Assembly: GCF_900142135.1 (NCBI RefSeq) | Contig: NZ_FQZU01000021.1 | Location: forward strand, 1 to 64,000 | DNA length: 64,000 bases | Direction of reading: 5' to 3' | Origin: Desulfatibacillum alkenivorans DSM 16219 | GTDB lineage: Bacteria > Desulfobacterota > Desulfobacteria > Desulfobacterales > Desulfatibacillaceae | In this document: one piece after another, positions 1,676 through 17,591 of the stretch | Numbering within the stretch: the first letter of the stretch is position 1 | Layout: each line of letters opens with the position of its first letter | The notes under the pieces: generated by a model | Databases searched by the model: none | What the model was told of the DNA's origin: nothing | What the model saw: only the letters and a program-made list of their open reading frames with translations | Translations under genes and position numbers: made by a program

Positions 1676-2212
1676 TCATCCCAAACAAATAAGGATGAAT
1701 TCCTCTTCCATGGCTTTGCGGTGGAATTTGATGGAGGAGACGGCGGCGGCCAGGGTCTGTTTTATGCGGGCGGGCGTGCGGGAGAGGCGCAAGGTCTGGG
1801 GCGGGCAGAAATACCAGAAGCACACAAAGGGCCGGGACAAACGGTCCAGGGTGCAGCCCCTTCGCCCTAAGAAAGCGCACGGCCCTTCCATATGGGACCG
1901 CAACTGCCTTGGGGGGCCGGAAATTCCTTCCAGATGCAAAAACAGCAGGTCCGGAAAATCCAGCCACACCTTGGCGTGAGCGCAGCACGGGTCCGGGCAA
2001 TGGGGGCAGGTTTTCAGGCAGAGATCCTGGGTTTGGGAGGCGGTGGACTCCAGAAGACGGCGAATTTCAGCCGAATGGGCTTTGGCCCCGCTTAACGCGG
2101 GGCCGTGCTTGCTTATGATACGGCGCAGGGCAGCGTTGGCTTCCTCCCAGAGGGCGGGATCCGCCCAGGGAATGACGGGGACCGCCCCCGGCGCTTTCGG
2201 CTTACCGGCCAT
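1676..2212 (-). CDS. YkgJ-like cysteine-cluster protein (putative Zn/Fe-chelating)
   Basis: This 178-residue protein has its cysteines in two groups: CPHCPDPCC in the middle, and CAFLGRRGC followed by RPFVCFWYFC near the C-terminal third. This spacing, with the 'GC-x(n)-RP-x2-C' element, resembles the YkgJ/CxxCxxCC family thought to bind zinc or iron. No function is established for the family. I chose the ATG at 2212, which overlaps the end of the upstream synthetase gene by 11 bases. A longer frame to 2308 would run through that gene and begins with low-complexity sequence. The overlap implies translational coupling in a two-gene operon. Confidence 0.65.
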   Translation of the reverse strand: MAGKPKAPGAVPVIPWADPALWEEANAALRRIISKHGPALSGAKAHSAEIRRLLESTASQTQDLCLKTCPHCPDPCCAHAKVWLDFPDLLFLHLEGISGPPRQLRSHMEGPCAFLGRRGCTLDRLSRPFVCFWYFCPPQTLRLSRTPARIKQTLAAAVSSIKFHRKAMEEEFILICLG

Positions 2213-3608
2213 TGCTCCACTTGAGGATGGAGGACGCGGCGTACACGCAATCCTGAATGGTGTTGAAGACGGCCAGGCCCCCTTCCCGGAACAGGGAGAA
2301 CATTTCAATGCGCACCTTTTCCATTTCCAGGACGTTTTCCGCGAATTTGGACAAAATGGGGATCACCGGCTTTTTCATTTTCGCCGCGGTTTCCAGGATG
2401 ATCTGGGGGCCGGTGGAAGCCAAATGCGGCGCAAAGGACGTGATGAAGTCCAGGGAGAAATAGGGCATGATCACGTCGATGTTTTCGTCCTGATCCATGG
2501 CCAGCATGGTGTGGGCCATGATGGAAAAGTCGAAGCCGAAGGCGCCCAGGTCCACGGGGTTGGCCGTGGAGGTGTTCACGTTGGCGATTTTTTCCGCAAT
2601 GCGGTCCTGGACGGCCTGGGACAGGACGGGCATTTCCAGCCCCACCCTGGCGGCCAGGTCGGTGAAGCACACGGAGGTTCCTCCGCCGGCGCCCAGAAAG
2701 CCCACCCGGTTTCCCTTGGGAAGACGGCTGGAGGTGGCCAGCATCATGAGGTCCATCATCTGCTCGAAAGTGTCTACAATAATGCCGCCTTTTTGGTTTA
2801 CGGCCGAAGAAAAAATTTTAAAATCCCCGGCCATGGCGCCCGTATGGCTGGCCGCGGCCTTGGCGCCGCGCTTGGTGCTGCCGCCTTTGAGCATAATCAC
2901 CGGCTTGGAGGCCGTGGTTTTTCCCAGGGCTTCCAAAAAGGCGGGGCCGTTTTTCACGTCTTCCACATAAATCGCAGCCGCCTCGATTTCCGGGTCCTCG
3001 GCGAAATAAGCCAGAAAATCCTCTAATTTCAGGTCCGCCTGGTTTCCGTAGGATACGGCCTTGTTCAGCCGGATCTTGCGGGAGCCGGACATACGCACGA
3101 AGTTGTCGCTCACCCCGCCGGACTGGCCCAAAAAGCCCACGTTGCCCTTTCCGTTGGGTTTGAACTCCATGTTAAAGGTAATGCGGGATTCGGCGCACAG
3201 AACGCCTATGCAGTTGGGCCCCACCAAGCGCACGTTGGACGCCCGGGCGGTTTCCACCAGTTCCTTTTCCAACTCCATATTGCCCACTTCGGAAAATCCC
3301 GAGGTGAAAAAATGCACGAAGGGCGCCCCGTTCCTCCCCGCCGCCTTGACCGTGTCTATGGCGAAGCGGGCTGGAATCTGGGCGATCACCAAATCCACGG
3401 TCTCGGGCACGTCGTCCAAAGAGGGATAAGCCTTTACTCCGGAGATTTCCGCGTGGGCCGGATTGACCGGATACAAGGCTCCCGCATATTCCATAAACTG
3501 CAAAAACTGAAAAAACGGCATCTTTCCGCCGTCAAATCCAGGAGAAGCGCCTACAACGGCGATTTTTTCGGGATAAAACAACTTTCGCAAATCCATAAAT
3601 CTTTCCAT
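2202..3608 (-). CDS. Acetate/acyl-CoA ligase (ADP-forming) alpha-subunit-like protein
   Basis: The 468 residues show a CoA-binding Rossmann domain at the N-terminus (KIAVVGASP), the GPNCIGV and GQSGGVSD segments of the succinyl-CoA-ligase-like domains, and SHTGAMAG with the phospho-accepting histidine at about residue 255. This is the alpha-subunit architecture of NDP-forming acyl-CoA synthetases, which interconvert an acyl-CoA plus ADP and phosphate with the acid plus ATP. The ATP-grasp beta part is not in the polypeptide and no separate beta gene is nearby, so it either partners in trans or has diverged. An in-frame ATG at 3596 (MDLRKLFYP) is an equally good start. It is followed by the cysteine-cluster gene, overlapping by 11 bases. 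Confidence 0.8.
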   Translation of the reverse strand: MERFMDLRKLFYPEKIAVVGASPGFDGGKMPFFQFLQFMEYAGALYPVNPAHAEISGVKAYPSLDDVPETVDLVIAQIPARFAIDTVKAAGRNGAPFVHFFTSGFSEVGNMELEKELVETARASNVRLVGPNCIGVLCAESRITFNMEFKPNGKGNVGFLGQSGGVSDNFVRMSGSRKIRLNKAVSYGNQADLKLEDFLAYFAEDPEIEAAAIYVEDVKNGPAFLEALGKTTASKPVIMLKGGSTKRGAKAAASHTGAMAGDFKIFSSAVNQKGGIIVDTFEQMMDLMMLATSSRLPKGNRVGFLGAGGGTSVCFTDLAARVGLEMPVLSQAVQDRIAEKIANVNTSTANPVDLGAFGFDFSIMAHTMLAMDQDENIDVIMPYFSLDFITSFAPHLASTGPQIILETAAKMKKPVIPILSKFAENVLEMEKVRIEMFSLFREGGLAVFNTIQDCVYAASSILKWSNGR

Positions 3609-3782
3609 TCCTATAACGTACTAAAAATATGCTCTTTAATGCTCACGCCTCTTATACTTTGAATATTTCCGCTAAAAATTCAAAGCAGGGGAGAAACATG
3701 ACGCAGGGCGCCCCGCCTGTCAAGGAGCTTTTTTCCGGGCAAGGGTCCGGAAAAATATTTTTAGGGGGGGTGAAAAAAAATA

Positions 3783-3812
3783 TTGACACAATTGTTTATT
3801 AAGTAGTACACA
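3783..3812 (+). promoter_or_regulatory. Candidate promoter for the R-body genes
   Basis: TTGACA at 3783-3788 is a perfect sigma-70-type -35 box preceded by an A-rich tract. The best -10 I can find is TACACA at 3807-3812 with an 18-base spacer, which is poor. The -35 is convincing, the -10 is not, so an activator may be needed or the true start may lie elsewhere. Confidence 0.4.
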
Positions 3813-3816
3813 CTAC
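3803..3816. promoter_or_regulatory. Inverted repeat overlapping the candidate -10 (possible operator)
   Basis: GTAGT-ACAC-ACTAC is a perfect 5-base inverted repeat with a 4-base spacer. It covers the candidate -10 region of the R-body promoter, where a repressor site would be expected. Such a short palindrome can occur by chance. Confidence 0.3.
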
Positions 3817-3931
3817 TCAAATGCGATCCACCAATCGAGTTTTTGCAGCGTGCACCGGGGCCGGACGCCTTTCTCATCCCAAGGCGCCCGGGCCTTTTTA
3901 AGCAGCGTAACATCACAACAAGGAGGGCGAC

Positions 3932-4201
3932 ATGGCATTTCCCACGTCAGTCAACAATCAAATCACGGACGCCGTCACCCAGGCCAACGTCAAGGTTCTG
4001 GGCGACGCCCCGGCCGTGGCCATGGGCAACCTGTACCAGGCGACCGCCCAGGCCCTGGCCAACGCGGCTCACAACGCCACCACCAGCCAACAGCAAACCA
4101 ACGTGACGGCGCAGGCCGCCACCACCCAGGGGGTCGCTTTGCTGTACTCCCTCAACACGGCCACAGCAGGCATTGCAACGGTCAAGGTGCTTGGCGCCTG
4201 A
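3932..4201 (+). CDS. rebB: RebB-family R-body protein, copy 1
   Basis: This 89-residue protein belongs to the RebB ('killing trait') family, the structural subunits of R-bodies, coiled protein ribbons best known from Caedibacter. Visible hallmarks are the N-terminal VNNQITDAVTQ, the central PAVAMGNLYQ, the small-residue helix ALANAAHNA, a QQQ, and the TAQAATTQGVALLYSL tail. It has no cysteine and no signal peptide. The start has a very strong Shine-Dalgarno (AAGGAGG). It is the first of seven closely related tandem copies and differs from copy 3 at only six positions. Ribbon assembly in the cytoplasm is the family role; it is not shown here. Confidence 0.9.
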   Translation: MAFPTSVNNQITDAVTQANVKVLGDAPAVAMGNLYQATAQALANAAHNATTSQQQTNVTAQAATTQGVALLYSLNTATAGIATVKVLGA

Positions 4202-4232
4202 TCCCTAACCCACATGTGAAAGGAGCGAGCCA

Positions 4233-4502
4233 ATGGCATTTCCGACTTCAGTAAACAATCAGATCACGGATTCGGTCACCCAGTCCAACACCAAGGTTTT
4301 GGGCGACGCCCCGGCCGTGGCCATGGGCAACCTGTACCAGGCCAGCGCCCAGGCTTTGGGCAACTCGGCCCATAACGCCGCCACCAGCCAGCAGCAGACC
4401 AACGTGACGGCCCAGGCGGCCACCACCATGGGCGTGGCCATTCTGTATTCCCTGGATACGGCTTCCGCGGGCATCGCCACCACAAAGGTGCTTGGCGCAT
4501 AG
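4233..4502 (+). CDS. rebB: RebB-family R-body protein, copy 2
   Basis: This is an 89-residue RebB paralogue with the same landmarks as copy 1 (VNNQITDSVTQ, GDAPAVAMGNLYQ, TAQAATTMGVA) and no cysteine. The 31-base spacer from copy 1 contains AAAGGAG, a good ribosome binding site. Its differences from copies 1 and 3 cluster in the middle (ASAQALGNSAHNA), while the N-terminal 35 residues are nearly the same, as expected after local gene conversion. It is presumably a structural ribbon subunit co-transcribed with its neighbours. Confidence 0.9.
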   Translation: MAFPTSVNNQITDSVTQSNTKVLGDAPAVAMGNLYQASAQALGNSAHNAATSQQQTNVTAQAATTMGVAILYSLDTASAGIATTKVLGA

Positions 4503-4548
4503 TCCTGGGTCCGCGCTGTTTTTCACCTATTAGGAAAGGAGCAAGGAC

Positions 4549-4818
4549 ATGGCATTTCCCACGTCAGTCAACAACCAGATTACGGATTCAGTCACTCAAG
4601 CCAACGTCAAGGTTTTGGGAGACGCTCCGGCCGTGGCCATGGGCAATTTGTACCAGGCCACCGCCCAGGCCCTGGCCAACGCGGCTCATAACGCCACAAC
4701 CAGCCAGCAGCAGACCAATGTGACGGCTCAGGCCGCCACGACCATGGGCGTTGCGACCCTGTATTCTCTGGACACGGCCACAGCAGGCGTGGCCACCACC
4801 AAGGTTCTCGGCGCCTAA
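4549..4818 (+). CDS. rebB: RebB-family R-body protein, copy 3
   Basis: This 89-residue RebB paralogue is almost the same as copy 1 in the first 65 residues and then follows copy 2 (TTMGVA, YSLDTA). It therefore looks like a mosaic of its two neighbours. It lacks cysteine and is preceded by AAAGGAG. The 46-base gap before it contains no terminator, so it should be part of the same transcript. Confidence 0.9.
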   Translation: MAFPTSVNNQITDSVTQANVKVLGDAPAVAMGNLYQATAQALANAAHNATTSQQQTNVTAQAATTMGVATLYSLDTATAGVATTKVLGA

Positions 4819-4841
4819 GGCCCGATGAAAGGAGCTAAATC

Positions 4842-5126
4842 ATGGCGTTTCCCACTTCTGTGAACACCATGATCACAGATTCCATCACCCAGGCTAACCT
4901 GGAGGTGCTGGGAGGGTCCCCGGCCATGGCTATGGCCAATTTGTTCATGACCATCTCCCATGCCTTGGGCAATGCAGCGCACAACGCCACCTATTCGCAG
5001 CAGCAAACCAATCTGACCGCCCAGGCCGCCACCACGCAGGGAATAGCCACCTTGTTCTGCCTGGAGACGGCCGCCACCGGCCTGGCCACAACGTCGATTA
5101 TGGGGGCCGGTCAAACCACATCGTGA
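4842..5126 (+). CDS. rebB: RebB-family R-body protein, copy 4 (cysteine class)
   Basis: This 94-residue RebB paralogue is clearly different from copies 1-3. It has LEVLGGSPAMAMANLFM and an LFCLETA motif that places one cysteine where copies 1-3 have serine, and its C-terminus is extended (MGAGQTTS). A GAAAGGAG ribosome binding site precedes it by a short gap. Together with copies 6 and 7 it defines a second, one-cysteine class within the array. Confidence 0.9.
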   Translation: MAFPTSVNTMITDSITQANLEVLGGSPAMAMANLFMTISHALGNAAHNATYSQQQTNLTAQAATTQGIATLFCLETAATGLATTSIMGAGQTTS

Positions 5127-5139
5127 AAGGAACTGAATC

Positions 5140-5412
5140 ATGGCGTTTCCCACTTCTGTCAATGATCAAGTCACGGACTCCATCACCCAGGCCAACGTGG
5201 AGGTGGTAGGCTCCTCCCCGGCCGTGGCCATGGGAAATTTTTATCAGTCCAACAGCCAGGCTTTGGGCAATGCGGCCCATAACTCCACGGTCAGCCAGCA
5301 GCAGACCAACGTGACGGCCCAGGCGGCCACCACGCAGGGGGTGGCGTTGCTTTACTCCCTGAACACGGCGACTGCGGGAGTGGCGACCACCAAGGTCCTG
5401 GACAGCATTTAG
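5140..5412 (+). CDS. rebB: RebB-family R-body protein, copy 5
   Basis: This 90-residue RebB paralogue combines a VEVVGSSPAVAMGNFYQ centre with a cysteine-free tail like that of copy 1 (GVALLYSLNTATAG), ending VLDSI. At nucleotide level its first codons match copy 4 (ATGGCGTTTCCCACTTCTGT), whereas its tail matches copy 1, again a mosaic pattern. The gap from copy 4 is only 13 bases and carries AAAGGA. Confidence 0.9.
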   Translation: MAFPTSVNDQVTDSITQANVEVVGSSPAVAMGNFYQSNSQALGNAAHNSTVSQQQTNVTAQAATTQGVALLYSLNTATAGVATTKVLDSI

Positions 5413-5437
5413 GAGCAGTTTAGAAAGGAGTTGAACA

Positions 5438-5707
5438 ATGGCATTTCCCACATCCGTCAACAACCAGATAACGGACTCGGTCACCCAGTCCAACGTGGAG
5501 GTGGTGGCGGCTTCTCCGGCCATGGCCATGGGAAACCTGTTTATGAGCGCCTCCCAGGCCCTTGGAAACGCGGCCCACAACGCCGCAACCAGCCAGCAGC
5601 AGACCAATGTGACAGCCCAGGCGGCCACCACCCAAAGCGTGTCCACCCTGTTCTGTCTGGACACCGCAAGCGCGGGTTTGGCCGCCATCAAGATTTTGGG
5701 GCAATAG
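5438..5707 (+). CDS. rebB: RebB-family R-body protein, copy 6 (cysteine class)
   Basis: This 89-residue RebB paralogue has VEVVAASPAMAMGNLFM in the centre and the LFCLDTA tail with one cysteine. It is preceded by AAAGGAG. Its first 50 or so bases are the same as those of copy 7 apart from a silent change, so these two appear to be the most recent duplication or have been homogenised. Confidence 0.9.
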   Translation: MAFPTSVNNQITDSVTQSNVEVVAASPAMAMGNLFMSASQALGNAAHNAATSQQQTNVTAQAATTQSVSTLFCLDTASAGLAAIKILGQ

Positions 5708-5723
5708 AAAAAGGAGGTAAGTC

Positions 5724-6026
5724 ATGGCATTTCCCACATCCGTCAACAACCAGATAACGGATTCGGTCACCCAGTCCAATACCGAGGTGGTGGGCAGTTC
5801 TCCGGCCATGGGCATGGGCAACCTTTTTATGGCCACGTCCCAGGCTTTGAGCAATGCGGCGCACAACGCCGCTTCGGGCCAGCAGCAGTCCAATGTGACG
5901 GCTCAGGCGGCCACCACCCAGAGCGTATCCACCCTGTTCTGCCTGGACACCGCAGCCACGGGCTCCGCCACCATGAAGGTGTTGGACGGCATAGGCGGGT
6001 CCGGCAACGACCATGGAGGCCTGTAA
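5724..6026 (+). CDS. rebB: RebB-family R-body protein, copy 7 (cysteine class, extended tail)
   Basis: This 100-residue RebB paralogue has the one-cysteine LFCLDTA tail and a C-terminal extension rich in Gly, Asp and His (GIGGSGNDHGGL). The 16-base gap after copy 6 contains AAAAAGGAGG. It closes the run of seven canonical copies; the copies that follow are much more divergent. The flexible tail might cap or modify the ribbon edge, but nothing in the sequence proves that. Confidence 0.88.
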   Translation: MAFPTSVNNQITDSVTQSNTEVVGSSPAMGMGNLFMATSQALSNAAHNAASGQQQSNVTAQAATTQSVSTLFCLDTAATGSATMKVLDGIGGSGNDHGGL

Positions 6027-6081
6027 CCCGAAACGCAATCCCGCCAGCCGCCGCATAAAGGCGGGTTAGGAGGGCTGGGCC

Positions 6082-6312
6082 ATTAGCACTGTCAATTCCC
6101 AGATAACCGACGCCGTGGTTCAGGCCGATGTTATGAGCGTGGGCATGGCGCCTTCGGCTTCCATGTCCATGGTCTACACGGTCATGGCCCAGACCATCGG
6201 CATGGTCATGCACAACGGCGCTGAAACCCAGCACGGCATGCAGCAGATCGCCGCAGCGGCGACCACTCAGACATGCGCCATGATTCTTGCCCTGGGCGCG
6301 GCCGGCCAATAA
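6082..6312 (+). CDS. Short divergent RebB-family protein, apparently initiated at ATT
   Basis: This 76-residue protein keeps the family N-terminus (STVNSQITDAVVQ), a Met-rich centre (MAPSASMSMVYTVMAQT) and a TTQTC tail. No ATG, GTG or TTG precedes the conserved segment: the frame is closed by TAG at 6067-6069. The strong Shine-Dalgarno AGGAGGG at 6068-6074 sits seven bases before ATT at 6082, which gives exactly the N-terminus seen in the other copies. The only conventional alternative, GTG at 6115, would remove the conserved VNSQITDAV. Initiation at ATT is rare (infC is the classic case) and usually weak, so this subunit may be made at low level. Confidence 0.75.
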   Translation: MSTVNSQITDAVVQADVMSVGMAPSASMSMVYTVMAQTIGMVMHNGAETQHGMQQIAAAATTQTCAMILALGAAGQ

Positions 6313-6349
6313 GGCGGATAATGGGCGGAGAAAGGAAGGGAGATAAACC

Positions 6350-6712
6350 ATGGGCAACGCGAATCAATTGAATCCTCAGGTTAACAATGCCTTGGGCGTG
6401 GCCCGGGATTTCACCATGTGCGCCAAAGTGGTGATGGTGGAAGGACAGGGCAAAGCCTATCAGTCCGCGGCCCAATCCGTGGCCATCGCGGTCCAGGACG
6501 CCACGGATTATTTGCGCAACATCAGCACGGCCGCCGCCACGGCCCAGGGCGTGGCCATGGCCAAAATCCTGGAAAACGTGGCCGAGGCCGGGGATTATGA
6601 ACCCGTCTTTGATAAGGCGAAATCCATGGTGGAGGCCGCGGCGACGCTATTAACGACCGTAGGGAATAACGGCAAGACAGCTTTGTCAGGATTTGAGCCT
6701 GGGAACAGCTGA
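6350..6712 (+). CDS. Divergent RebB-domain protein (120 residues)
   Basis: The protein aligns with the canonical copies through LNPQVNNAL at the N-terminus and AYQSAAQSVAIAVQDATDY then TAAATAQGVAMAKIL in the centre. The AHNA/QQQ segment is replaced by QDATDYLRN. It has a 40-residue acidic C-terminal extension absent from the short copies. A GAAAGGAAGGGAG ribosome binding site lies before the ATG. With the next gene it forms a distinct sub-class that may correspond to a larger subunit or an assembly factor; the R-body systems studied also need non-identical Reb proteins. Confidence 0.75.
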   Translation: MGNANQLNPQVNNALGVARDFTMCAKVVMVEGQGKAYQSAAQSVAIAVQDATDYLRNISTAAATAQGVAMAKILENVAEAGDYEPVFDKAKSMVEAAATLLTTVGNNGKTALSGFEPGNS

Positions 6713-6752
6713 GCCGCCCTGCTTCAACAAGCCTAAGACAGAGGACGGACCA

Positions 6753-7103
6753 ATGCCGGATAATGTGAATCCCCAGGTTACCGACGCGCTGACCCAACTG
6801 CAGTCAGCAACCATGGATCCTGGCGTGGTGGTCATGGAAGGCAAGGGAAAGGCCTTTCAGTCCATTTCCCAGTCCATGGCCATAGCAATCCAGGACGCGG
6901 TGGATTACATGCGCAACGTTTCCACCATGAGCGCCACCGCCCAGGGCGTGGCCATGGCCAAATTTCTGGAAACCAAAAACCAGGACTACCTGGACAAGGC
7001 CCTGAAAGACGCCATTGACATGGCGGCAAACGCCGCCGATTCCTTTGGCAAGATAAGCGCCAGCGCCAAAGAGGTCTTAGGCGACTTCGACCCAGCATCC
7101 TAA
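6753..7103 (+). CDS. Divergent RebB-domain protein (116 residues)
   Basis: This is a sister of the preceding gene: VNPQVTDALTQ, then GKAFQSISQSMAIAIQDAVDYMRN and SATAQGVAMAKFL, then an alternating-charge C-terminal helix. The ATG at 6753 restores the family N-terminus. An upstream GTG at 6693 would overlap the previous gene and add a Pro/Lys-rich stretch unlike any other copy. Spacing and direction place it in the same operon. Confidence 0.75.
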   Translation: MPDNVNPQVTDALTQLQSATMDPGVVVMEGKGKAFQSISQSMAIAIQDAVDYMRNVSTMSATAQGVAMAKFLETKNQDYLDKALKDAIDMAANAADSFGKISASAKEVLGDFDPAS

Positions 7104-7175
7104 AGGCGGACTCCTCTTAAGCCTTTAAGCCGCACGCTTATGACGACATAAGCCCCCGGCGCGGGAGGTGAGGAT

Positions 7176-8207
7176 TTGATATACGTAGCCGACAAACTCA
7201 TGGAGAACATCGGGGCCTTTTCCCACAGGTTCCGGCTCATTGCCGAACGGATCCAGGGAGGGCCCCAGTGGCTCCGGTTCGCCATGCAGAGCCCGACGGA
7301 CAGTTATATGGCCGGCAGCGAACTGGAGTTGCTGTCCCTCGTCCAGAAAGGGCTTCACGGATCCAGGCTGATGCTGTTTACGGACTTGAACCTGCTCATG
7401 GATCCGCTCAAGCTATGGAACCTGCCTGAAGACGACCTGGCCCTCATTGGAACGGCCAGGAGGGAGGAAAGCGTCCGGGACGTCCTGGACAAATACGGCA
7501 TTCTGGATTTCGCTCAACTCAGCAAAGGGATTGATTTTTTACGGTCCTTTGAAATCGAGGACAAGCCCGTGTTTCAGGTCATGAACCTGGCGGACCGCCT
7601 GGCCCTTTATGCAATCGCCTTAGACGGACAGGAGCGGGAGGCGTCCAAAAAGGATCTTACAATCAGAAAGGAATCCTGCGAATTCGCCCTGCAGCTCTGT
7701 CAGACCCCCAAGGAATTCCAGGCTCTGTTCCATCTCTACGAAGCGGTCTGCAACAAGTTTAATGCAAAAACCCGCAGCGCCCGCCGGAAACGGGCCCAGT
7801 TGATCTGGGAGGATTACAACGAATTGTGCGACGGCCTTGTGGAGACTGTAACCCTGGGTAGAAAGTACAATCCCGACGGCCTGGACATGGAAATAAAAAG
7901 CGCCCTGGCGGATCTTCGGCAAATTGGATTCTCCTGCAAGGCGGCGGCCATGCTCAATCTCATCCGGAATACGATTCTCACATGCGAAGACCAGCCTCGG
8001 GCCCGAAAAATAGTCAGGGATTACATGAGCGCAATATTCAACCTGATCGCCGCGGGAACCGTTGAATCCACGTCCGTGGGCCAGGACGGGGTCATGCGGC
8101 TTATCTACGCCTCCGCCCTGATCGCCCCTGGAGGATCGGCGGCAGTGGAAGTCGACCGCCTGGGGCTTGTGACCGTGGCCTCCGGCGTTGTGGAAAATAT
8201 AATATGA
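7176..8207 (+). CDS. R-body-locus protein of unknown function (343 residues)
   Basis: I do not recognise this protein. It starts at TTG (7176) behind a strong Shine-Dalgarno (GGAGGTG at 7164-7170). It looks soluble and mostly helical, with no signal peptide or clear membrane segment. It has a basic helical patch around residues 200-210 (KTRSARRKRAQ), several scattered cysteines, and a Gly/Ala-rich C-terminal part (IAPGGSAAVEVDRLG). It sits between two RebB-domain genes, and the next one begins 13 bases after its stop, so it is very likely translated with them. An assembly, chaperone or regulatory role in R-body formation is a guess from position only. Confidence 0.7.
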   Translation: MIYVADKLMENIGAFSHRFRLIAERIQGGPQWLRFAMQSPTDSYMAGSELELLSLVQKGLHGSRLMLFTDLNLLMDPLKLWNLPEDDLALIGTARREESVRDVLDKYGILDFAQLSKGIDFLRSFEIEDKPVFQVMNLADRLALYAIALDGQEREASKKDLTIRKESCEFALQLCQTPKEFQALFHLYEAVCNKFNAKTRSARRKRAQLIWEDYNELCDGLVETVTLGRKYNPDGLDMEIKSALADLRQIGFSCKAAAMLNLIRNTILTCEDQPRARKIVRDYMSAIFNLIAAGTVESTSVGQDGVMRLIYASALIAPGGSAAVEVDRLGLVTVASGVVENII

Positions 8208-8220
8208 AAGGAGCAAAACC

Positions 8221-8775
8221 ATGTCCGACCAATCCGTCAACAGCCAGATAACGGACGCCGTCACCCAGCTCAACGCCATGATGGTTGGGGAATCCCCTCC
8301 CCAATCCATGGCCATGATAAACGCCGTGATGGCTGACACCATGGGCATGGCTTTGCATAACGCCGTATCCACCCAACATCACGCCCAGATGATCGGCGGC
8401 GCCTCCACCACCTCAACCTGCGCCCGAATGCTGGGGATCTTGGCGCCCCCGGATAAAACCCGGAAGGCGGCTGACGCCGTCCCGAAGGCCGCCAAGACAG
8501 GGTCCAAATTTTTTGATTGCGACATTTGCTCCGGGACGGCGTCGCAAAGAAGGGCGGCCGAAGACAGCCAGCCGGCGGCAAACGGAAAACAGGACGGAGA
8601 AAACGGCGGCCAGGGCATTTTGGCGAAATTCGCTGAATTGTTCAAAAAGCATCATCAAAAAGAGCATGAGGAAATGAACGGGAACAGGGAACAGCCGGAG
8701 GACCAGGCCGGCGCGGAAGTTCCGGAAGCGGGGGGAGATCCGGAATCGCCCCCTTTTACGCCCGAGGACGTATAG
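8221..8775 (+). CDS. RebB-domain protein with long disordered C-terminal tail
   Basis: Residues 1-80 are a RebB domain (SVNSQITDAVTQLN, then ESPPQSMAMINAVMADTMGMALHNAV and TTSTCARMLGIL). They are closest to the ATT-started copy in their Met-rich centre and TC motif. The remaining 100 residues are low-complexity and strongly charged (Lys/Ala, then Glu/Gln/Gly/Pro), with one short CDIC cysteine pair and a His/Lys stretch (FKKHHQKEHEE). This looks intrinsically disordered. The start has AAAGGAG and lies 13 bases from the preceding gene. Caedibacter Reb proteins also differ in length, so a special structural role is plausible. Confidence 0.8.
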   Translation: MSDQSVNSQITDAVTQLNAMMVGESPPQSMAMINAVMADTMGMALHNAVSTQHHAQMIGGASTTSTCARMLGILAPPDKTRKAADAVPKAAKTGSKFFDCDICSGTASQRRAAEDSQPAANGKQDGENGGQGILAKFAELFKKHHQKEHEEMNGNREQPEDQAGAEVPEAGGDPESPPFTPEDV

Positions 8776-8850
8776 CGTCCTTTTTAAGGATGCTGCTGCA
8801 TAAACCGGCTTCATGCCTGCAAAGGCGAGCCGAATTGAAAGGATAAACCA

Positions 8851-9231
8851 ATGGAAGACGAAGTCTACTACGAAGATTATGGAAGCCATGGCGCCCTCCA
8901 GGAGGAAGCCATGCAGGAAGCGGCCGAGTCCCAGTTGATCGCTGTGGAGAAGGCCATGATCCTATCCAACGAAGCATGCGAAGCCGTCGCCCAGGCCGCC
9001 AATCTGGTCAATAAACGCCAGGAGCAGGCCCAGCACCGCATTCAGGATATCAACGGCAAGGGCAAGCCGCTCAAAAAGATTCCTTTGGAAGAATCTTTGG
9101 TGCAGCTGAAAAAGGAATTTGAAATGCTCCAGGAGGGCTTTGGGCGCTTTTTTGAAAAATGCCAGGAGATTCTTGTGGAGATCGCCATCCTGGTGGATCT
9201 GGAAAAAAAGGCGGAGCAGAAGGAAAACTAA
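8851..9231 (+). CDS. Small helical protein of the R-body locus, unknown function
   Basis: This is an unrecognised acidic protein of 126 residues. It has an N-terminal Tyr/Asp/Glu-rich stretch (DEVYYEDYG), then two long predicted amphipathic helices (around residues 15-65 and 80-122) with heptad-like Leu/Ile/Ala spacing. It has no signal peptide. It is preceded by GAAAGGA and follows the tailed RebB protein by 75 bases on the same strand. The coiled-coil character would suit a scaffold or partner of the ribbon, which is inference. Confidence 0.65.
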   Translation: MEDEVYYEDYGSHGALQEEAMQEAAESQLIAVEKAMILSNEACEAVAQAANLVNKRQEQAQHRIQDINGKGKPLKKIPLEESLVQLKKEFEMLQEGFGRFFEKCQEILVEIAILVDLEKKAEQKEN

Positions 9232-9288
9232 CCGCGTCCCAACGCGCGCCTTAACAATCCAGGCGGCGCATTTTTACAGGAGTCCATT

Positions 9289-9852
9289 ATGATAAGCAAA
9301 CCGATAGCGGACCTTGTTCAGGCCATGGCCAAGTGGGGAAAATCCAGGGGCCCGGCGGTTCAGCAGGCTTATTTGTCTGAGGGGGACTGGTCGCCGTGGG
9401 CGCAGGTGGAGCAGGCGCTTCAGTTCATCAACACCTTTGGGAACGTGACGGTGACCCGGAATCAGACGGTGCATTCCAAGCCGGACGTCGCAGCGGATTT
9501 GCTGGTTGCGGGCGGCGGCCCCAAAAAAATCGCCATCAGCCTGACCTGCGAACTCCACGCAGACACGGACCAGGATGCTGCGCCCAAGGTTGTCAACCCT
9601 GCCGCCGGATACGGGAATCAGGGCGGAGACGCGGTTTCGGACAAGACCTGCGAGAAAGTCCTGGCCTGTTATGAGGCCATGAAAAACGTGGACCTGAGCC
9701 AATACAGCCCCGTGGTCATGGGCATGATGGTTTCCAACACCGCCAATGACGCAGCCAAATTCTACCTGTGCGACCTCACGGGATTCCAGGCCCAATCCTT
9801 ATACCAGGACAAAAGCGGAGGCCTTTTGGGGCTCTATTTCAAATCGTTGTAA
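9289..9852 (+). CDS. Last gene of the R-body locus, unknown function (187 residues)
   Basis: I do not recognise it. The 187 residues have no signal peptide and combine predicted strands and helices. The middle has a pattern, SKPDVAADLLVAG...KKIAISLTCE followed by helices, that loosely recalls the D...(I/E)xLxCE core seen in some PD-(D/E)XK-like folds, but the lysine is absent. Treat that as a lead only. A ribosome binding site (AGGAG) precedes the ATG. It closes the co-directional run of R-body-linked genes; 309 bases separate it from the chemosensory operon. Confidence 0.65.
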   Translation: MISKPIADLVQAMAKWGKSRGPAVQQAYLSEGDWSPWAQVEQALQFINTFGNVTVTRNQTVHSKPDVAADLLVAGGGPKKIAISLTCELHADTDQDAAPKVVNPAAGYGNQGGDAVSDKTCEKVLACYEAMKNVDLSQYSPVVMGMMVSNTANDAAKFYLCDLTGFQAQSLYQDKSGGLLGLYFKSL

Positions 9853-10161
9853 ACAGGAAATCTTTTCCCATCCAAAAATCAAATTTGATCCATAAGGGGG
9901 GCTGCCGCACCCTTATGGAAAACGGGGAGAAGGTTGATCAAGTCTTAACGGTTTATAAGCATAAAATCATTTTTTTATGTTATTTCAACATAATTCCTTC
10001 CTCACAAAAGTCCCGCCCGAGAAAGAATTACACCTTGGGAATAAATCTGGCTTAAGGATCTTTGACTCTCGGCCAGTATTGTGCTAAAGTTCTGGTTTGA
10101 CAGTGCAATGGGCCATCCTCCTTGCCTGATTATTCCAAGCAAAATATGTGGCGGGTACTTT
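9853..10161. other. Gap between the R-body locus and the chemosensory operon
   Basis: It contains a perfect 9-base inverted repeat (CCATAAGGG at 9890-9898 and CCCTTATGG at 9910-9918), with no T-tract on the plus strand, so it is at best a weak or Rho-aided terminator. After an AT-rich stretch comes the candidate promoter at 10062-10090. No gene is seen. Confidence 0.5.
10062..10090 (+). promoter_or_regulatory. Candidate sigma-70-type promoter for the chemosensory operon
   Basis: TTGACT at 10062-10067 and TAAAGT at 10085-10090 are separated by 17 bases and lie about 70 bases before the first cheW. Match to consensus is five of six and four of six. It suggests that the chemosensory genes can be transcribed separately from the R-body genes. 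Confidence 0.5.
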
Positions 10162-10632
10162 ATGAGTCAGAAAAAACAATACTTTGTGTTCATTTTAGAT
10201 GAACAAAGATACGGTATTGACCTTCAAGCTGTGGAGCGGGTGATCCCCGCCGTGGAGTTGATCACTCTGCCCGAGGCGCCGGAAATCATGTCCGGCCTGA
10301 TCAACCTTCGCGGCAGGATGATCCCCGTAGTTGATATCAGAAAAAAGTTCGGGCTGCGTCCCCGCCGGATGGAGATGGAGGACCGAATCATCATTTTCCA
10401 GACATCCACCTGGACGACCTCCATTGTTGTGGATAAAGTGGAGGGAGTGGCTGAGTTTGGTCCGGAAGATTTATCCGACGCAGAAGAGCTTTTCCCCGAA
10501 ATGGGGCAATTCATGGAAGGCGTGGGAAAATCCGGCGATGAAAGCGTCCTGATCTACGATATCGACAACCTGTTTTCCGGACAGGAAATCCACAAGGTAA
10601 GCAGCCAGGTGGAAAACCACTCACAGCCTTAA
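10162..10632 (+). CDS. cheW: CheW-like coupling protein (WspB position)
   Basis: This 156-residue single-domain CheW protein shows KQYFVFILDEQRYGIDL, the VERVIPA segment, and the GLINLRGRMIPVVDIRKKFG core typical of the family. CheW links receptors to the histidine kinase CheA. I use the ATG at 10162 because it gives the usual CheW N-terminus; a GTG at 10081 would add 27 atypical residues. It is the first gene of a seven-gene operon, and a second CheW lies two genes downstream. Two CheW proteins flanking a CheR-TPR is the arrangement of the Pseudomonas Wsp system. Confidence 0.9.
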   Translation: MSQKKQYFVFILDEQRYGIDLQAVERVIPAVELITLPEAPEIMSGLINLRGRMIPVVDIRKKFGLRPRRMEMEDRIIIFQTSTWTTSIVVDKVEGVAEFGPEDLSDAEELFPEMGQFMEGVGKSGDESVLIYDIDNLFSGQEIHKVSSQVENHSQP

Positions 10633-10639
10633 GTGCTCC

Positions 10640-12184
10640 ATGGCCCAAAACATAGAAAAAAATTTATTTGCTCGCCTTAGCGAGTTAATACAGAATAAAA
10701 TCGGCCTTTTTTTTCCGCCGGAGAGGTGGCACGATTTAGAGAGGGGGGTTCGCGCAGCCGCTTTGGAGCTGGGTTTCGAAGACACCACATCCTGCATTCA
10801 GGGATTGTTGGGGTCTCCGGTCACCAAGGTTCAGTTGGACACATTGGTTGCGCACCTGACGGTGGGGGAAACTTTTTTTCTCCGAGACGAAAGCCACTTT
10901 AACGCCCTCCAACATCAGATCCTGCCGGACATTTTCGAAAAATGCGCCAAAAAAGGCAAGCAGCCGCGTTTTTGGAGCGCCGCATGCTGCACGGGGGAAG
11001 AGCCATACACCATGGCCATGGTCGTTGACCGCATGAAGCCTTATTGGACGGCCAAAGACTTTTCCATCCTGGCGACGGACATCAACTCCCGGTTTTTGGA
11101 AAAAGCCAGGAAAGGCATATACACCAACTGGTCTTTGCGGAACGCTCCCAATTGGATGGTGGAAAAATATTTCACCGTACACGGGAACAACCGGTTTGAG
11201 GTGGAAAAGAGCCTGAAAAAGGCCATACGCTTCACCAATCTCAATTTGGTGGACCCGGTTTATCCCTCGGCGGTGACGCACACGGAAGAAGTCAACGTGG
11301 TATTTTGCCGCAACGTGTTGATGTACTTCAATCAGAAGTTGCGGGACACGGTTATAGAGAGAATCGCCTGGGCCTTGGCGGACAATGGCTGGTTTTTTGT
11401 AGGGCCCAGCGAAGCGGCTTTTGTGGAGCATCCCAATTTGGCGCATATACGGTACCCGGGCGCCATTATTTTTCAAAAGCAAGCCGCAAAAAACAGGGTG
11501 CAAGGCGCGGACCTTGTGGATGCAAAGGCTGAGTCCGCCCCCGAAAAAAAAGAGACGCCTTTGCCGACTTTTCCCGCAAGAACGCCGTTGACCAGGCGCC
11601 CGCCCAGAGCCGAGCGTACGGCTCCGCCCAGACCGGAAGCCGGCCGGGCGAAAAAAATGGAGCCTTTGGACGCGGACCGCATGCTCGATAAGGCGCTTGA
11701 GCTTGTGGAAAGAGGCAATTACGACGACGCGGTGAATTGCCTGCTTGAAATTATTTCAACGGCCGACGCCAAGGCGGGAATGAGGCCGGACAGCAGGGCC
11801 ATGGCCCTTTTGGCCAGGACTTACGCCAATATGGGCAAGCTGGAAGAGGCCCGCAGATGGGGCGGCAAGGCCGTAGATGCAGACAAGTTAAACCCCGGCC
11901 ACCGCTATTTGCTGGCCACGGTTTACGCAGAGTTGGGCGACTCGGAAAAAGCGGCGGATTTGCTTCAAGCCTCCCTTTTTCTGGACTCCCGGTTTATACT
12001 GGCCCATTTCACGTTGGGCAATACCGTTAAAAAACAGGGCAAGGCCAATGAAGCGAGGAGGCATTTTAAAAACGCCTTATCCTTGCTGCTGGACCTTGAC
12101 TCGGATGCAGTAATCCCCCACTCCGGGGGAATGACAGCGGGGCGGCTTACGGAGATTGTTCGTTCCATGATTTTAGGGGATTGA
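10640..12184 (+). CDS. cheR: CheR-type methyltransferase with C-terminal TPR region (WspC-like)
   Basis: The 514 residues have an N-terminal CheR helical domain, an S-adenosylmethionine-binding methyltransferase domain (WSAACCTGEEPYTMAM; ILATDINS; NVVFCRNVLMYF), a Pro/Arg-rich linker at about 300-340, and TPR-like helices at about 345-500 (YDDAVNCLLEII, ARTYANMGKLEEA). It would methylate glutamates of the chemoreceptor encoded two genes downstream. The C-terminal TPR part is what distinguishes WspC-type CheR proteins from the short flagellar CheR. It begins 7 bases after cheW, with weak ribosome binding, so translation is probably coupled. Confidence 0.92.
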   Translation: MAQNIEKNLFARLSELIQNKIGLFFPPERWHDLERGVRAAALELGFEDTTSCIQGLLGSPVTKVQLDTLVAHLTVGETFFLRDESHFNALQHQILPDIFEKCAKKGKQPRFWSAACCTGEEPYTMAMVVDRMKPYWTAKDFSILATDINSRFLEKARKGIYTNWSLRNAPNWMVEKYFTVHGNNRFEVEKSLKKAIRFTNLNLVDPVYPSAVTHTEEVNVVFCRNVLMYFNQKLRDTVIERIAWALADNGWFFVGPSEAAFVEHPNLAHIRYPGAIIFQKQAAKNRVQGADLVDAKAESAPEKKETPLPTFPARTPLTRRPPRAERTAPPRPEAGRAKKMEPLDADRMLDKALELVERGNYDDAVNCLLEIISTADAKAGMRPDSRAMALLARTYANMGKLEEARRWGGKAVDADKLNPGHRYLLATVYAELGDSEKAADLLQASLFLDSRFILAHFTLGNTVKKQGKANEARRHFKNALSLLLDLDSDAVIPHSGGMTAGRLTEIVRSMILGD

Positions 12185-12188
12185 TCCT

Positions 12189-12833
12189 ATGAACAGCCAG
12201 GCGCAAAAGACAATAGATAAAGCCAATCTTTCCGTCGATGAACGGTGGGCGGAAGTCAGAAAACAATTGGACGAGGCCAGGGCGTCTTACAATCAGGCCG
12301 GAGAAATGTCCGGAGATGAAATCAAAAGCGCCTTGAAAAAAAGGGCCAAGCTTCTGGCCGCCCGGTCCAAGGACGAGGGAAAGGGCGCGGGGGAAAAGCT
12401 GGATGTGGTGGAGTTCCTGCTGGCGCACGAAAAATACGCCATTGAGCTTTCATGCATCAGGGAAGTCTACCCCTACAAGGACTGCACCCCTATTCCGTGC
12501 ACCCCGTCATTCGTTTTGGGCGTGATCAATGTGCGTAGCAGGATTCTTTCCGTCGTGGATCTGAAAGAATTTTTCGAACTGCCCAAGCAAAAAATCACGG
12601 AGAACTCCCGGGTCATCATCCTTGCTTCGGACGACATGGAATTCGGCGTCCTGGCGGACGAGTTAAAGGGAGTCAACTCCATTCCCGCGGAAAAAATTCA
12701 GCCCTCCCTGCCTACATTGACAGGATTAAGGGCGCAGTATTTAAAGGGCGTCACGGCCGGAGGCCTTGTGATCTTGGATGGTTTACGCATTCTACAGGAT
12801 AAAAGAATCGTGGTGAACCTGGAAGTGGAATAA
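12189..12833 (+). CDS. cheW: Second CheW-like coupling protein with N-terminal extension (WspD position)
   Basis: The CheW domain fills about residues 75-212 ([39 protein letters not shown]). It is preceded by about 70 charged, helical residues that the first CheW lacks. The gene begins 4 bases after cheR. In Wsp the two coupling proteins WspB and WspD differ in the same way, and both bind the receptor-kinase complex. A role as the second adaptor is inferred from this position. Confidence 0.88.
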
Positions 12834-12865
12834 GGTTTCTCCTGGGATCTATTGGCGGAGGTGGC

Positions 12866-14995
12866 ATGGGAAGTATAAAAAACCGTATCCTGATTTACTT
12901 TTGCACCAGCGTTGCCGTTATCATATTGGTCATACTCCTTGCGGTAAACATCACGTTGCGGGGAGGAATTGAGAATCAATTCCAGGATCTTGTACAGGAA
13001 GCCACCAGTCGTGAAAAGGAAAGGCTAAGCACTTACGAAAACTTTTTGAACAAACATCTGAGCCTGGTGGGCAAGGACATGCTTTCCGCAGCCCTTGAAA
13101 TTGCAGGGAATAAGGACCTGAGCGAAAATATCGATTTTGTGCAGCTTAATGTTCTCAGCCATTATGAACTGCAGTTAAAAACCAATATCCTGCTTGAGGA
13201 GATCGCCTTTTCCTCCAGGCTGGAAAACGACGAAGAGCAATCTTCGGGAATGAGCTCATACGCATTGGTTGAATCCGGCAAGTTTGACTTTGCCGTCATC
13301 GTTTCTTTGAAAAACGAAGTTCTGACCGCCTACCCCAATAACGAAAACTCCCAGGTTCTGGCCGACTTCTGCAAGGCGATGGATCTGGCCGCCTCGGCAA
13401 GGGAAAATGCCGGCCAGCTTCACGCCCGGAATCTTTCCAAAGAATTCCTTTCCGCCGTAGGCCTGACGAATCAGGGCAAGAGCTATGAACGGGAAGCGGC
13501 TGCTTTGATCTCCGCCAATTTGATCAAGGACGAATTTGACAACACCAGAGCTTTTCTGCTGACCGGCAAGCTTTACGACCACTTGGAATACGCTTTGGCG
13601 TCTTTTAATGAAGCCACCGGAGCGCCCGCCGCGATTTTTCTCGGAAACCAGGCGGCGTCGCAAGCCGGCTTTAAAGTGCAGGACGGCCGGGATATCCATG
13701 AGGCTCTTAAAATCGGGGACAATGTCTCGCAAAAGCTCCTGACGGAAGGGGTTAAAGCCCCTGTCATCGCCTCTTTGGCCGGTAACGATTATCTGGTCAA
13801 AACCATCCCCATAAAAACCGACCAAGGAACCGTCCTGGGCTTCGCCCTTGCCGGCCTCCCCATGAACCAGGTCCACGCCATGGAAAACAACCTGGACCAG
13901 CACGGAAAAAACATGCTGAAAAAGGTCGCCAAATGGATTTCCGGGGTGGGAGTCCTTGCCATGGCGGCTTTTATCCTGCTTTCCCTGTTCATATCCGAAG
14001 GCATTACGCGGCCCATCAGGCGCATCGCCCTGATGGTGCGGGACATGGCTGAAGGGGACGGAGATCTTACGGTTCGCCTCAAGGAAGAGGGGCGCGACGA
14101 ACTGACGGACCTGGCGAAATGGTTCAACGTGTTCATGGGCAAACTGCAAGCCATGGTGATAGAGATCAAGGAAGGCTCGGAGCTTCTGGCGGTTTCATCC
14201 AGCCAGATATCGTCCACCGCATCCGAACTGGCGAGCAGTTCGGCCCAGACATCCAGCTCCATTTCCGAGATTTCAACAACCATGGAGGAAGTCAAGCAAA
14301 CCGCCGCCCTTACCAGCGAAAAAGCGGAAGTAGTGGCGGACACGGCGGACTCCGCAGCCCAACACTCCGAATCCGGGGAAAAAGCCACTCATGACGCCCT
14401 CATGGGCATGAACCGCGTCAAAGAGGAAATGGAGTTTATTGCTGAAAGCATTGTCAAACTTTCGGAGCAGACCCAAAGCATTGGAGACATTATTGACGCA
14501 GTGGGCGACTTAGCCAACGAGTCCAACCTGTTGTCGGTCAACGCTTCCATTGAAGCGGCTAAGGCGGGGGAATACGGCAAAGGATTTTCGGTCGTCGCCC
14601 AGGAAGTGAAAAATCTTGCGGACCAATCCAAACAGGCCACCGGCCAGGTGCGCACGATTCTGAACGATATTCAGAGCGCCACCAGCACCGCCGTCATGGC
14701 CACGGAAAGAGGAAGCAAGGCCGTGGACAGCGGAGTCGGCTTGTCCAGTCAATCCGGACAAACCATCCAGGACCTGGTGGAAAGCGTCAATCAGGCGGCC
14801 CGGGCTGCGGCCCAGATTGCAGCGTCCAATCGCCAGCAGATGGCGGGTATGGATCAACTTAGCCAAGCCATGACAAGCATCAAAGACGCCAGCCTCCAGA
14901 ATGTGGATGGCGCCAAGCAATTGGAAGGCGCGATTTCAGATATGCACGAACTTGGTCAACGCATGAAGGAGCTGGCAGGCAAGTTCAAAGTGTGA
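12866..14995 (+). CDS. Methyl-accepting chemotaxis protein (WspA position)
   Basis: This 709-residue receptor has a first membrane helix near residues 9-30, a large periplasmic sensing region to about 350, a second helix near 355-377 ([19 protein letters not shown]), a HAMP domain ([19 protein letters not shown]) and a cytoplasmic signalling hairpin. Its tip reads [18 protein letters not shown]. The sensor is unlike the short four-helix domain of WspA, and its ligand cannot be told from the sequence. It lies inside the operon between the second cheW and cheA, so it is almost certainly their dedicated receptor. Confidence 0.92.
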
Positions 14996-15007
14996 AGGTG
15001 ATGAGTT

Positions 15008-17578
15008 ATGAATGAAGAGGAACTGTTAAAAAGACTTCGGAGCGCGTTCAGGCTGGAAGCTGACGAGCGCCTGGCAAACATGTCATCCGGGCTTCTTGGG
15101 CTGGAAAAGGCCAAGGATCCCGAAAGCCAGGCAGCCCTGGTGGAAGAGGTTTTCCGTGAGGCCCATAGTTTGAAGGGGGCGGCCCGGGCCGTCAACCTCA
15201 AGGAAATCGAATCCCTGGCCCAGGTGGCGGAAAGCGTCCTGGCCGGCATTAAAAGGCGGGAAATAGAACTCTGCACGGAACTTTTTGACACCTTGCATGA
15301 TTCCGTAAACGCCTTTGAAAACTGCCTTGCCAATATTGACGAAGATCCCAACGCCAATAAAGACGAAATGGCCGACGTAACCAAAAGGCTTATGGATTGG
15401 CGCGACGGCAAATCTGAAGGGGATGACGACGCAACGGATCAGGTTGAAGAAGTTCAGGAGGCCGCTGCGGAAGCGGAGGAGCCCGAAGACGTCGAGGACG
15501 CGGAGGACGCGGAGGACGATGACGAGGATTACGGCGGCCTTTACGACGACGAGGATGACGAGGACGAAGAGTACGAGTATTTTGACGAGGAGGAAGACCA
15601 GCCCCTAAAGGCGTCTTCGCCTGAACCGGAGCCGGAACCGGAGCCGGAGCCTGAACCGGAGCCCAAGGCCAAACCCAAGGCGGCCAAAAAGGCCAAGCCA
15701 GCGGCCAAGGAAGCCGCGCCCAAAGAGGAAAGCGCCAAGCCGGCCTCCTCCAAAACGCCCCGGCCTGGAGAAGCAGCGGCCGTCCGCTCGCAAATGGCGG
15801 AAACCGTCCGCATCGCCACCTCCAAGCTGGACTCCATTCTGCTGAAGGCCGAGGAGCTGGTTTCTTTAAAACTGGTTTCTCTGCAGCATTCCCAAAACCT
15901 GAAAGATACGGCTTCGGGCATTGAGCTCTGGGAAAAGAAGTGGGCCCGCTTTAAAACGGAAATCCGGTGGCTGCGCAGGGAAGTTCAGCAGCAAGGCGTC
16001 CAGGGCGACAGCGATCGCGGCGCCGGTCATCTGGCTCAGATCATGGAATTTTTGGACTGGAACCAGAACCACGTTCAAAACCTGGGCCACGAAATCCGGA
16101 ACCTGACCAAGGCCTCGGAACAGGACCATCGCAACCTTTCCCGTTTTGCGGACGACCTTCTGGATGAAGTAAAAAGGGTCACCATGCTCCCCTTTTCCAC
16201 TTTGTTTGATGGCTTTCCGCGCATGATCCGGGATATTTCCCGCAATCAGAACAAGGAAGTGGATCTTATTCTTCAGGGCGGCGAAATTGAAATCGACCGG
16301 CGGATTCTGGAGCAAATGAAAAGCCCCTTCATTCACCTGCTGCGCAACTCGGTGGACCACGGCCTGGAAACGCCCGAAGAACGGGTGGAAAGAGGCAAGC
16401 ACCGTGCGGGCACCATCAACCTGACGGTTTCGCAGGACGAAGGCGGCAAGGTGGAAATTCTGCTGAAGGACGACGGCGGCGGCATCAACTTTCCCCGCCT
16501 CAAGGAAAAAGCCGTCAAAAAGGGGGTTATCACCCAACAGGAAGCGGAGCAAATGCAGGATCAGGAGGCCGTCAGCCTGATTTTCCGCTCCGAAATTTCC
16601 ACCAGCCCCATTATCACAGAGATTTCCGGACGGGGCCTTGGCATGGCCATTGTGGCGGAAACCGTGGAGAAGCTGGGCGGCGTTCTTTCCGTGGAGACGG
16701 AAGAAGGCGTGGGAACGAGCTTCAAGATCGGCCTGCCGGTCACCCTGGCTACTTTCCGGGGCGTTCTTATTGAAGCGGAAAAACAGCCTTTTATCGTGCC
16801 CGGCGCACAGGTGGAGAGGGTGCTTCGCCTGCCCAGGGAAGAAATTCAAACCGTGGAAAACCGCGCTTCCGTAACGATCAACGACCAGATTTTATCCGTC
16901 GCCAACCTGGGCGGCGTCCTGAGTCTGGAAGCCTCCCTGGAAAAGGACCGCGAGCCCCTCCTGACCCTGGTTATTATGGCGGCGGGCGACAAACGCATGG
17001 CTTTTTCGGTGGACCAGGTGGTTTGCGAGCAGGAGGTTGTGGTCAAGAGCCTTGGCCGCCAGTTGGCCCGGGTTCCCAATGTGGCGGGCGCCACGATTTT
17101 GGGCTCCGGCAAGGTGGTGCCTGTGCTCAATGTATCGGATCTTATGAAGAGCGCCGCGCTCAGCTTCCGGGCCGCCATGGGCGAAGCCATGGAAGGAGAC
17201 AAGGACTCCGCCAGAAAACGGACCATACTCATCGCCGAGGACTCCATTACGTCCCGGATGCTTATAAAAAATATTCTGGAAGCGGCGGGCTATGTAGTCA
17301 CCACGGCTGTTGACGGCCTGGAAGCCTATAATATATTTGAGACCGGCGGCTTCGACGCCGTGGTTTCGGACGTGGAAATGCCTCGCATGAACGGATTTGA
17401 GTTGACTGCAAAAATCAGGGGGCACCAATCCCGCGCGGAAACCCCCGTGGTGTTGGTAACCAGCCTGGACTCCAAGGAAGACAAGGAGCGCGGCATCGAG
17501 GTCGGCGCCAACGCGTACATTGTTAAAGCCAGTTTTGATCAAAGTAATCTATTGGAAGTCATTGATCGTTTGATCTAA
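15008..17578 (+). CDS. cheA: CheA-type hybrid histidine kinase with receiver (WspE-like)
   Basis: The 856 residues contain an HPt domain with the phospho-histidine in AHSLKGAAR (His53), then a long low-complexity linker. The linker has a run of Asp/Glu/Tyr (about 137-200), (Glu-Pro) repeats (about 203-217) and a Lys/Ala/Pro-rich stretch to about 260. Next come the dimerisation domain, the ATPase (LLRNSVDHGLETP; GRGLGMAIV), a CheW-like domain, and a C-terminal receiver with VVSDVEMP and a conserved lysine. No recognisable CheY-binding P2 domain is seen. Kinase-receiver fusions of this type are the rule in Wsp and Frz systems, not in flagellar chemotaxis. Confidence 0.93.
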   Translation: MNEEELLKRLRSAFRLEADERLANMSSGLLGLEKAKDPESQAALVEEVFREAHSLKGAARAVNLKEIESLAQVAESVLAGIKRREIELCTELFDTLHDSVNAFENCLANIDEDPNANKDEMADVTKRLMDWRDGKSEGDDDATDQVEEVQEAAAEAEEPEDVEDAEDAEDDDEDYGGLYDDEDDEDEEYEYFDEEEDQPLKASSPEPEPEPEPEPEPEPKAKPKAAKKAKPAAKEAAPKEESAKPASSKTPRPGEAAAVRSQMAETVRIATSKLDSILLKAEELVSLKLVSLQHSQNLKDTASGIELWEKKWARFKTEIRWLRREVQQQGVQGDSDRGAGHLAQIMEFLDWNQNHVQNLGHEIRNLTKASEQDHRNLSRFADDLLDEVKRVTMLPFSTLFDGFPRMIRDISRNQNKEVDLILQGGEIEIDRRILEQMKSPFIHLLRNSVDHGLETPEERVERGKHRAGTINLTVSQDEGGKVEILLKDDGGGINFPRLKEKAVKKGVITQQEAEQMQDQEAVSLIFRSEISTSPIITEISGRGLGMAIVAETVEKLGGVLSVETEEGVGTSFKIGLPVTLATFRGVLIEAEKQPFIVPGAQVERVLRLPREEIQTVENRASVTINDQILSVANLGGVLSLEASLEKDREPLLTLVIMAAGDKRMAFSVDQVVCEQEVVVKSLGRQLARVPNVAGATILGSGKVVPVLNVSDLMKSAALSFRAAMGEAMEGDKDSARKRTILIAEDSITSRMLIKNILEAAGYVVTTAVDGLEAYNIFETGGFDAVVSDVEMPRMNGFELTAKIRGHQSRAETPVVLVTSLDSKEDKERGIEVGANAYIVKASFDQSNLLEVIDRLI

Positions 17579-17591
17579 TTGAGAGGTTGGG

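Follow-up and report, generated by a model that had tools for sequence, protein, structure and literature searches.

The gene at 7176 in the window, by which we mean the whole 64,000-nucleotide stretch of Desulfatibacillum alkenivorans DSM 16219 DNA analysed here, is by its sequence a homologue of HP1.1, a protein family already published. The locus that carries it (3932-9852) is very probably a Group 1-type R-body locus, a confidence that attaches mainly to the identification of HP1.1 and of Group 1. Judged from its gene content, it belongs to Group 1, with extra Reb copies and a rearranged gene order, and does not represent a new type. This extends the HP1.1 family to Desulfatibacillum, beyond the Pseudomonadota loci compared, at about 25% identity, and supplies two new candidate genes, at 8851 and 9289.

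Group 1 synteny was defined by four families, HP1.1 (~360 aa), HP1.2 (110-120 aa), HP1.3 (~170 aa) and HP1.4 (60-80 aa), the last two being distant Reb proteins (Raymann et al. 2013, PMC3583457). According to the same study, the HP1 families were reported solely from reb-carrying taxa, an A. brasilense plasmid carries all four, and the order HP1.1-HP1.4 is met "often", that is, frequently but not obligatorily. A 2026 survey mentioned HP1.1 and set it aside as non-Reb (PMC13430693).

Layout of the locus and reality of its genes

The genes of the locus follow one another in the order seven Reb genes, HP1.4, HP1.2, HP1.2, HP1.1, HP1.3 and the genes for the 126-aa and 187-aa proteins, as listed here with their coordinates, strand and supporting match:

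3932..6026, + strand: seven tandem genes for RebB, the primary R-body protein, 89-100 aa (PF11747, E 1e-27 to 1e-30)
6082..6312, + strand: short RebB, HP1.4-like, about 76 aa (PF11747, E 3e-19)
6350..6712, + strand: HP1.2-like copy a, 120 aa, distant Reb (blastp and profile match)
6753..7103, + strand: HP1.2-like copy b, 116 aa (blastp match)
7176..8207, + strand: HP1.1 homologue, 343 aa, TTG start (tblastn)
8221..8775, + strand: long RebB, HP1.3-like, 184 aa (PF11747, E 4e-23)
8851..9231, + strand: 126-aa gene, genus-restricted (present in L009, 78% identity)
9289..9852, + strand: 187-aa gene, genus-restricted, last gene of the locus (present in L009, 74% identity)

Nine PF11747 matches of 68-108 bits were obtained in the tandem genes, the curated cut-off being 24 bits, and the seven RebB products were 58-78% identical to Azospirillum reb products. 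The genes at 7176, 8851 and 9289 are all intact, with a Shine-Dalgarno-like sequence before each. The first-pass annotation had described these three as running in the same direction as the reb array, with the first of them 13 bases from a RebB gene; both the open reading frames and the gap (to the gene at 8221) were confirmed, and the gap is identical in the sister species, Desulfatibacillum sp. MAG7 (L009, the same locus as G247:C106). In MAG7 the three genes occur in the same order, with identities of 63, 78 and 74%. Substitutions between the two species at codon positions 1/2/3 numbered 96/75/193 for 7176, 31/13/55 for 8851 and 40/25/79 for 9289, and dN/dS (NG86) was about 0.11, 0.09 and 0.15, respectively. 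Because the order is kept in MAG7 and the substitutions fall mainly at codon position 3, the three are real genes under purifying selection, beyond chance open reading frames. The two species are collinear over 1693-18196 of the window, a span that includes the flanks of the reb locus, and the conserved order is therefore no proof that 8851 and 9289 serve a reb function.

A chemosensory cluster lies directly after the reb locus (10144-17578), where open reading frames for CheW, CheR, CheW, a chemoreceptor and a CheA-like protein were recognised by eye; it too is collinear in the sister species. Positions 1-284 resemble the terminal part of an IS66-type transposase, again by eye from the translation.

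The gene at 7176 and the HP1.1 family

A tblastn search of plasmids with the 7176 protein returned eight records, each with a single match covering 84-97% of the query: seven from Azospirillum (E 8e-22 to 4e-21) and one from Eleftheria terrae (1e-19), at 24-28% identity. All eight are annotated "hypothetical protein", and the reverse search of plasmids with the Azospirillum protein recovered the same eight records. Where the Azospirillum and Eleftheria loci are annotated, the homologue, of 355-361 aa, is the final gene of a reb cluster; four RebB genes come first, then one short and one long Reb and a 115-116-aa protein. The 361-aa Azospirillum protein is almost certainly HP1.1 by its plasmid, length, position and exclusivity, the source text giving neither a sequence nor an accession. 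Given that identification and the homology between the two proteins, the gene at 7176 is to be read as encoding an HP1.1 homologue.

An alignment of four HP1.1 sequences contained 47 invariant columns, which are targets for probing the function of HP1.1, a question since 2013; a QDG motif is conserved close to the C-terminus. The 7176 protein had no significant match in Pfam, NCBIfam, PHROGs or PADLOC, and none by sequence in the PDB. An AlphaFold2 model of the 343-aa protein, built from two sequences only (mean pLDDT 49.1), was mostly helix with C-terminal strands and scored best over residues 75-216; Foldseek found no match to it at E 0.001. HP1.1 is a non-Reb protein, probably mostly helical. 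Its start codon is TTG in both Desulfatibacillum species.

Across plasmids and the 389 class genomes, all HP1.1 homologues (10/10) lay within reb-carrying replicons or genomes, a count that represents about three independent lineages (Desulfatibacillum, Azospirillum and Eleftheria), the seven Azospirillum plasmids being closely related and the two Desulfatibacillum genomes belonging to one genus. RebB was found within about 3.5 kb in 8/8 of the HP1.1-bearing plasmid records, while RebB-holding records made up 16 of 72,556 plasmids overall. Among the class genomes, HP1.1 occurred in 2/389, each with reb, and RebB in 5/389. No HP1.1 homologue was found in viral contigs. HP1.1 was also undetected in clusters of Vibrio, Photobacterium and Bealeia with HP1.2-like genes, within the stretches fetched, and the other three Desulfobacteria reb clusters (G338, G502 and G537) held none of HP1.1, the 126-aa gene and the 187-aa gene. 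Thus, HP1.1 is not universal even among clusters with HP1.2-like genes.

A RebB match in a viral contig (L054, 7179-8783) was rejected as a reb gene, as it consists of a 25-residue stretch in a 535-aa frame with the rest of Reb missing. The stretch itself, ITDSVTQANVKVLGQS, is 58% identical to the RebB N-terminus.

The remaining Group 1 families were recognised around the 7176 gene. Copy a (6350) was 43-45% identical to the HP1.2-size protein of Azospirillum and Eleftheria (blastp, E 1e-26) and was linked to Reb by profile (probability 92%), and copy b (6753) matched L011:6622-6972 and L012:6554-6901 over its full length at 47-48% identity (E 1e-31 to 1e-33). These two predicted products, encoded directly upstream of 7176, are divergent Reb relatives of the HP1.2 family. 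Within its Reb part, the 8221 protein was 47% identical to L011:6105-6560 (blastp), and the HP1.4-like product of 6082 matched L011:5875-6108 and L012:5688-5921. The HP1.4-like gene has no ATG, GTG or TTG at the expected start. The codon after its Shine-Dalgarno sequence is ATT, at 6082, and at the equivalent place in the sister species (L009, about 4655-4885) the apparent start is ATC; read from these two observations, HP1.4 apparently starts at ATT/ATC.

An HP1.1 protein beside reb and devoid of known domains, together with HP1.2, HP1.3 and HP1.4, is the content of Group 1, and all of these are present here. The usual order, HP1.1, HP1.2, HP1.3, HP1.4, is replaced by HP1.4, HP1.2, HP1.2, HP1.1, HP1.3, and Azospirillum, Eleftheria and Desulfatibacillum have in common that HP1.2 immediately precedes HP1.1. 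Since genomes with one to nine Reb homologues have been known since 2013, the expanded array alone is not new.

The genes at 8851 and 9289

The 126-aa and 187-aa proteins had no significant match in Pfam, NCBIfam, PHROGs or PADLOC and no match among plasmids, and no homologue of the 187-aa protein was found in phages or viral contigs. Each gene was present in 2/389 class genomes (G000 and G247, both Desulfatibacillum). Profiles of the two proteins found nothing in the reb loci of Vibrio, Photobacterium, Bealeia, Ruegeria, Burkholderia, Azospirillum, Eleftheria and other Desulfobacteria; the empty result on the reb loci fetched from Ruegeria and Burkholderia gave no sign of a relation to the Group 2 genes (HP2.1 and HP2.2). 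The 126-aa profile gave one weak extra match (E 0.004) in L009, to a frame of 724 aa, the counterpart of the chemoreceptor-like open reading frame of the window.

The 126-aa protein is rich in Glu, Ala and Gln and has two amphipathic stretches (helical moment p 0.03 and 0.015 versus shuffles), and its product is probably a two-helix protein. Compared with the Reb, HP1.2 and HP1.4 profiles, it gave hhalign probabilities of <1%. A resemblance to the Ala-rich gene located after HP1.1 in the Azospirillum and Eleftheria clusters, seen by blastp when composition was left uncorrected (5e-4), was discarded, the profile comparison giving a probability of 2%. For the 187-aa protein, an AlphaFold2 model from two sequences only (mean pLDDT 42.7) was alpha/beta, with a helix-three-strand-helix order, and Foldseek returned no match at E 0.001. 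The helix-strand order recalls a PD-(D/E)xK nuclease; this candidate was rejected, with no sequence or fold support and no E-x-K at the expected place.

Both genes lie on the same strand as reb, after gaps of 75 and 57 bases, and no terminator-like site was listed on the + strand over 8207-9852. Most likely, they belong to the reb operon as accessories particular to this lineage. Tentatively, their products may be dedicated accessories of the R-body that have so far gone undescribed, such as an adaptor in one case and a cargo or cap protein in the other; if so, they would give the HP1.1-type R-body of Desulfatibacillum a property of its own. It is also conceivable, though we would not call it probable, that the two genes are passengers caught between the reb locus and the chemosensory cluster and unrelated to R-bodies. 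They are the final two genes, with no reb link elsewhere, and vertical inheritance alone would explain their order, given the collinearity of the whole region; for the same reason, linkage is unable to separate an accessory from a passenger. Their shared strand, short gaps, own Shine-Dalgarno sequences and the terminator-free stretch speak against passengers, as does the fact that, among the class genomes, they are confined to the two in which HP1.1 and this array occur, although these belong to one genus.

Another reading makes HP1.1 or the 187-aa protein a killing factor or cargo instead of an assembly factor, in line with the naming of the HP families as candidates for regulation of assembly or function, or as toxins (Raymann et al., PMC3583457). 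Neither protein matched a known toxin or other family, and the models, with pLDDT values of 42.7 and 49.1, are too weak to judge by. Effectors usually differ between strains. HP1.1, conserved beside HP1.2, would in this respect be unlike an effector, and we regard a killing or cargo role as improbable.

The first-pass annotation had further suggested that the three genes, as a dedicated set, would define a new R-body type if they accompanied expanded RebB arrays elsewhere, and this is very hard to sustain: two species do keep them in order beside reb, and 8851 and 9289 have no relatives in the families and collections searched, but 7176 is a member of the published Group 1, and the two small genes are missing from all other reb clusters examined, including the HP1.1-bearing ones and the three other Desulfobacteria clusters. 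Its description of the genes as unrecognised holds for 8851 and 9289, which match no family, and fails for 7176, whose family was described as HP1.1 in 2013. Repeated co-occurrence with RebB was likewise borne out for 7176 (10/10 homologues, about three lineages), whereas 8851 and 9289 recur, in the collections searched, within the genus only. For none of the three did the homologues occur mostly away from reb, and none proved to be a passenger differing between strains.

Proposed roles and comparison with known systems

We infer that the locus is transcribed as an operon and that the cell would produce R-bodies, and the roles of the individual proteins can be proposed on the same footing. The seven RebB genes would encode the R-body polymer, and HP1.4, HP1.3 and the two HP1.2 proteins would belong to the divergent Reb proteins that accompany it. 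HP1.1 would most likely be a cytoplasmic factor of low abundance that serves assembly or maturation in partnership with HP1.2, and the 126-aa and 187-aa products would be lineage-specific accessories within the one operon. For a non-structural assembly or maturation role of HP1.1 the balance is about even; the grounds are its strict association with reb, its constant position next to HP1.2 and, as a precedent, AZC_3784, a non-Reb gene in the Azorhizobium reb operon that is essential for R-body formation (PMC5527310). The TTG start of HP1.1 and the apparent ATT/ATC start of HP1.4 suggest that both may be made at a low dose.

The second type of Desulfobacteria cluster (G338, G502 and G537) has Reb arrays and HP1.2-like and HP1.4-like genes in common with the present locus and differs in being devoid of HP1.1 and of both small genes. 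Short Rebs were also seen in these clusters (L044, L045 and L046), along with a large protein (about 660-730 aa), one resembling a coiled coil and, judged by eye, an activator of the sigma-54 type; L044 has a transposase-like open reading frame (9467-10804) within its reb cluster.

The Azorhizobium locus and the present one both hold a non-Reb gene, a likeness of operon position, and the Azorhizobium operon carries RebR (Crp-Fnr) (PMC5527310). The reb cluster of P. aeruginosa PA14, which consists of rebP1, rebP2, rebD, rapA, rcgA and fecI2, is also an R-body locus with non-structural partner genes (PMC8322103); a transcription factor and a sigma factor are encoded there, whereas no such regulator gene lies inside the locus described here. 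With the Group 1 synteny of the A. brasilense plasmid (Raymann et al. 2013), the likeness extends to multiple Reb genes and all of HP1.1-HP1.4. The Desulfatibacillum locus differs from it in having seven primary Reb genes instead of four, a duplicated HP1.2, HP1.3 behind HP1.1 (the Azospirillum order being four Reb genes, HP1.4, HP1.3, HP1.2, HP1.1), two extra terminal genes and a Desulfatibacillum genome as its host.
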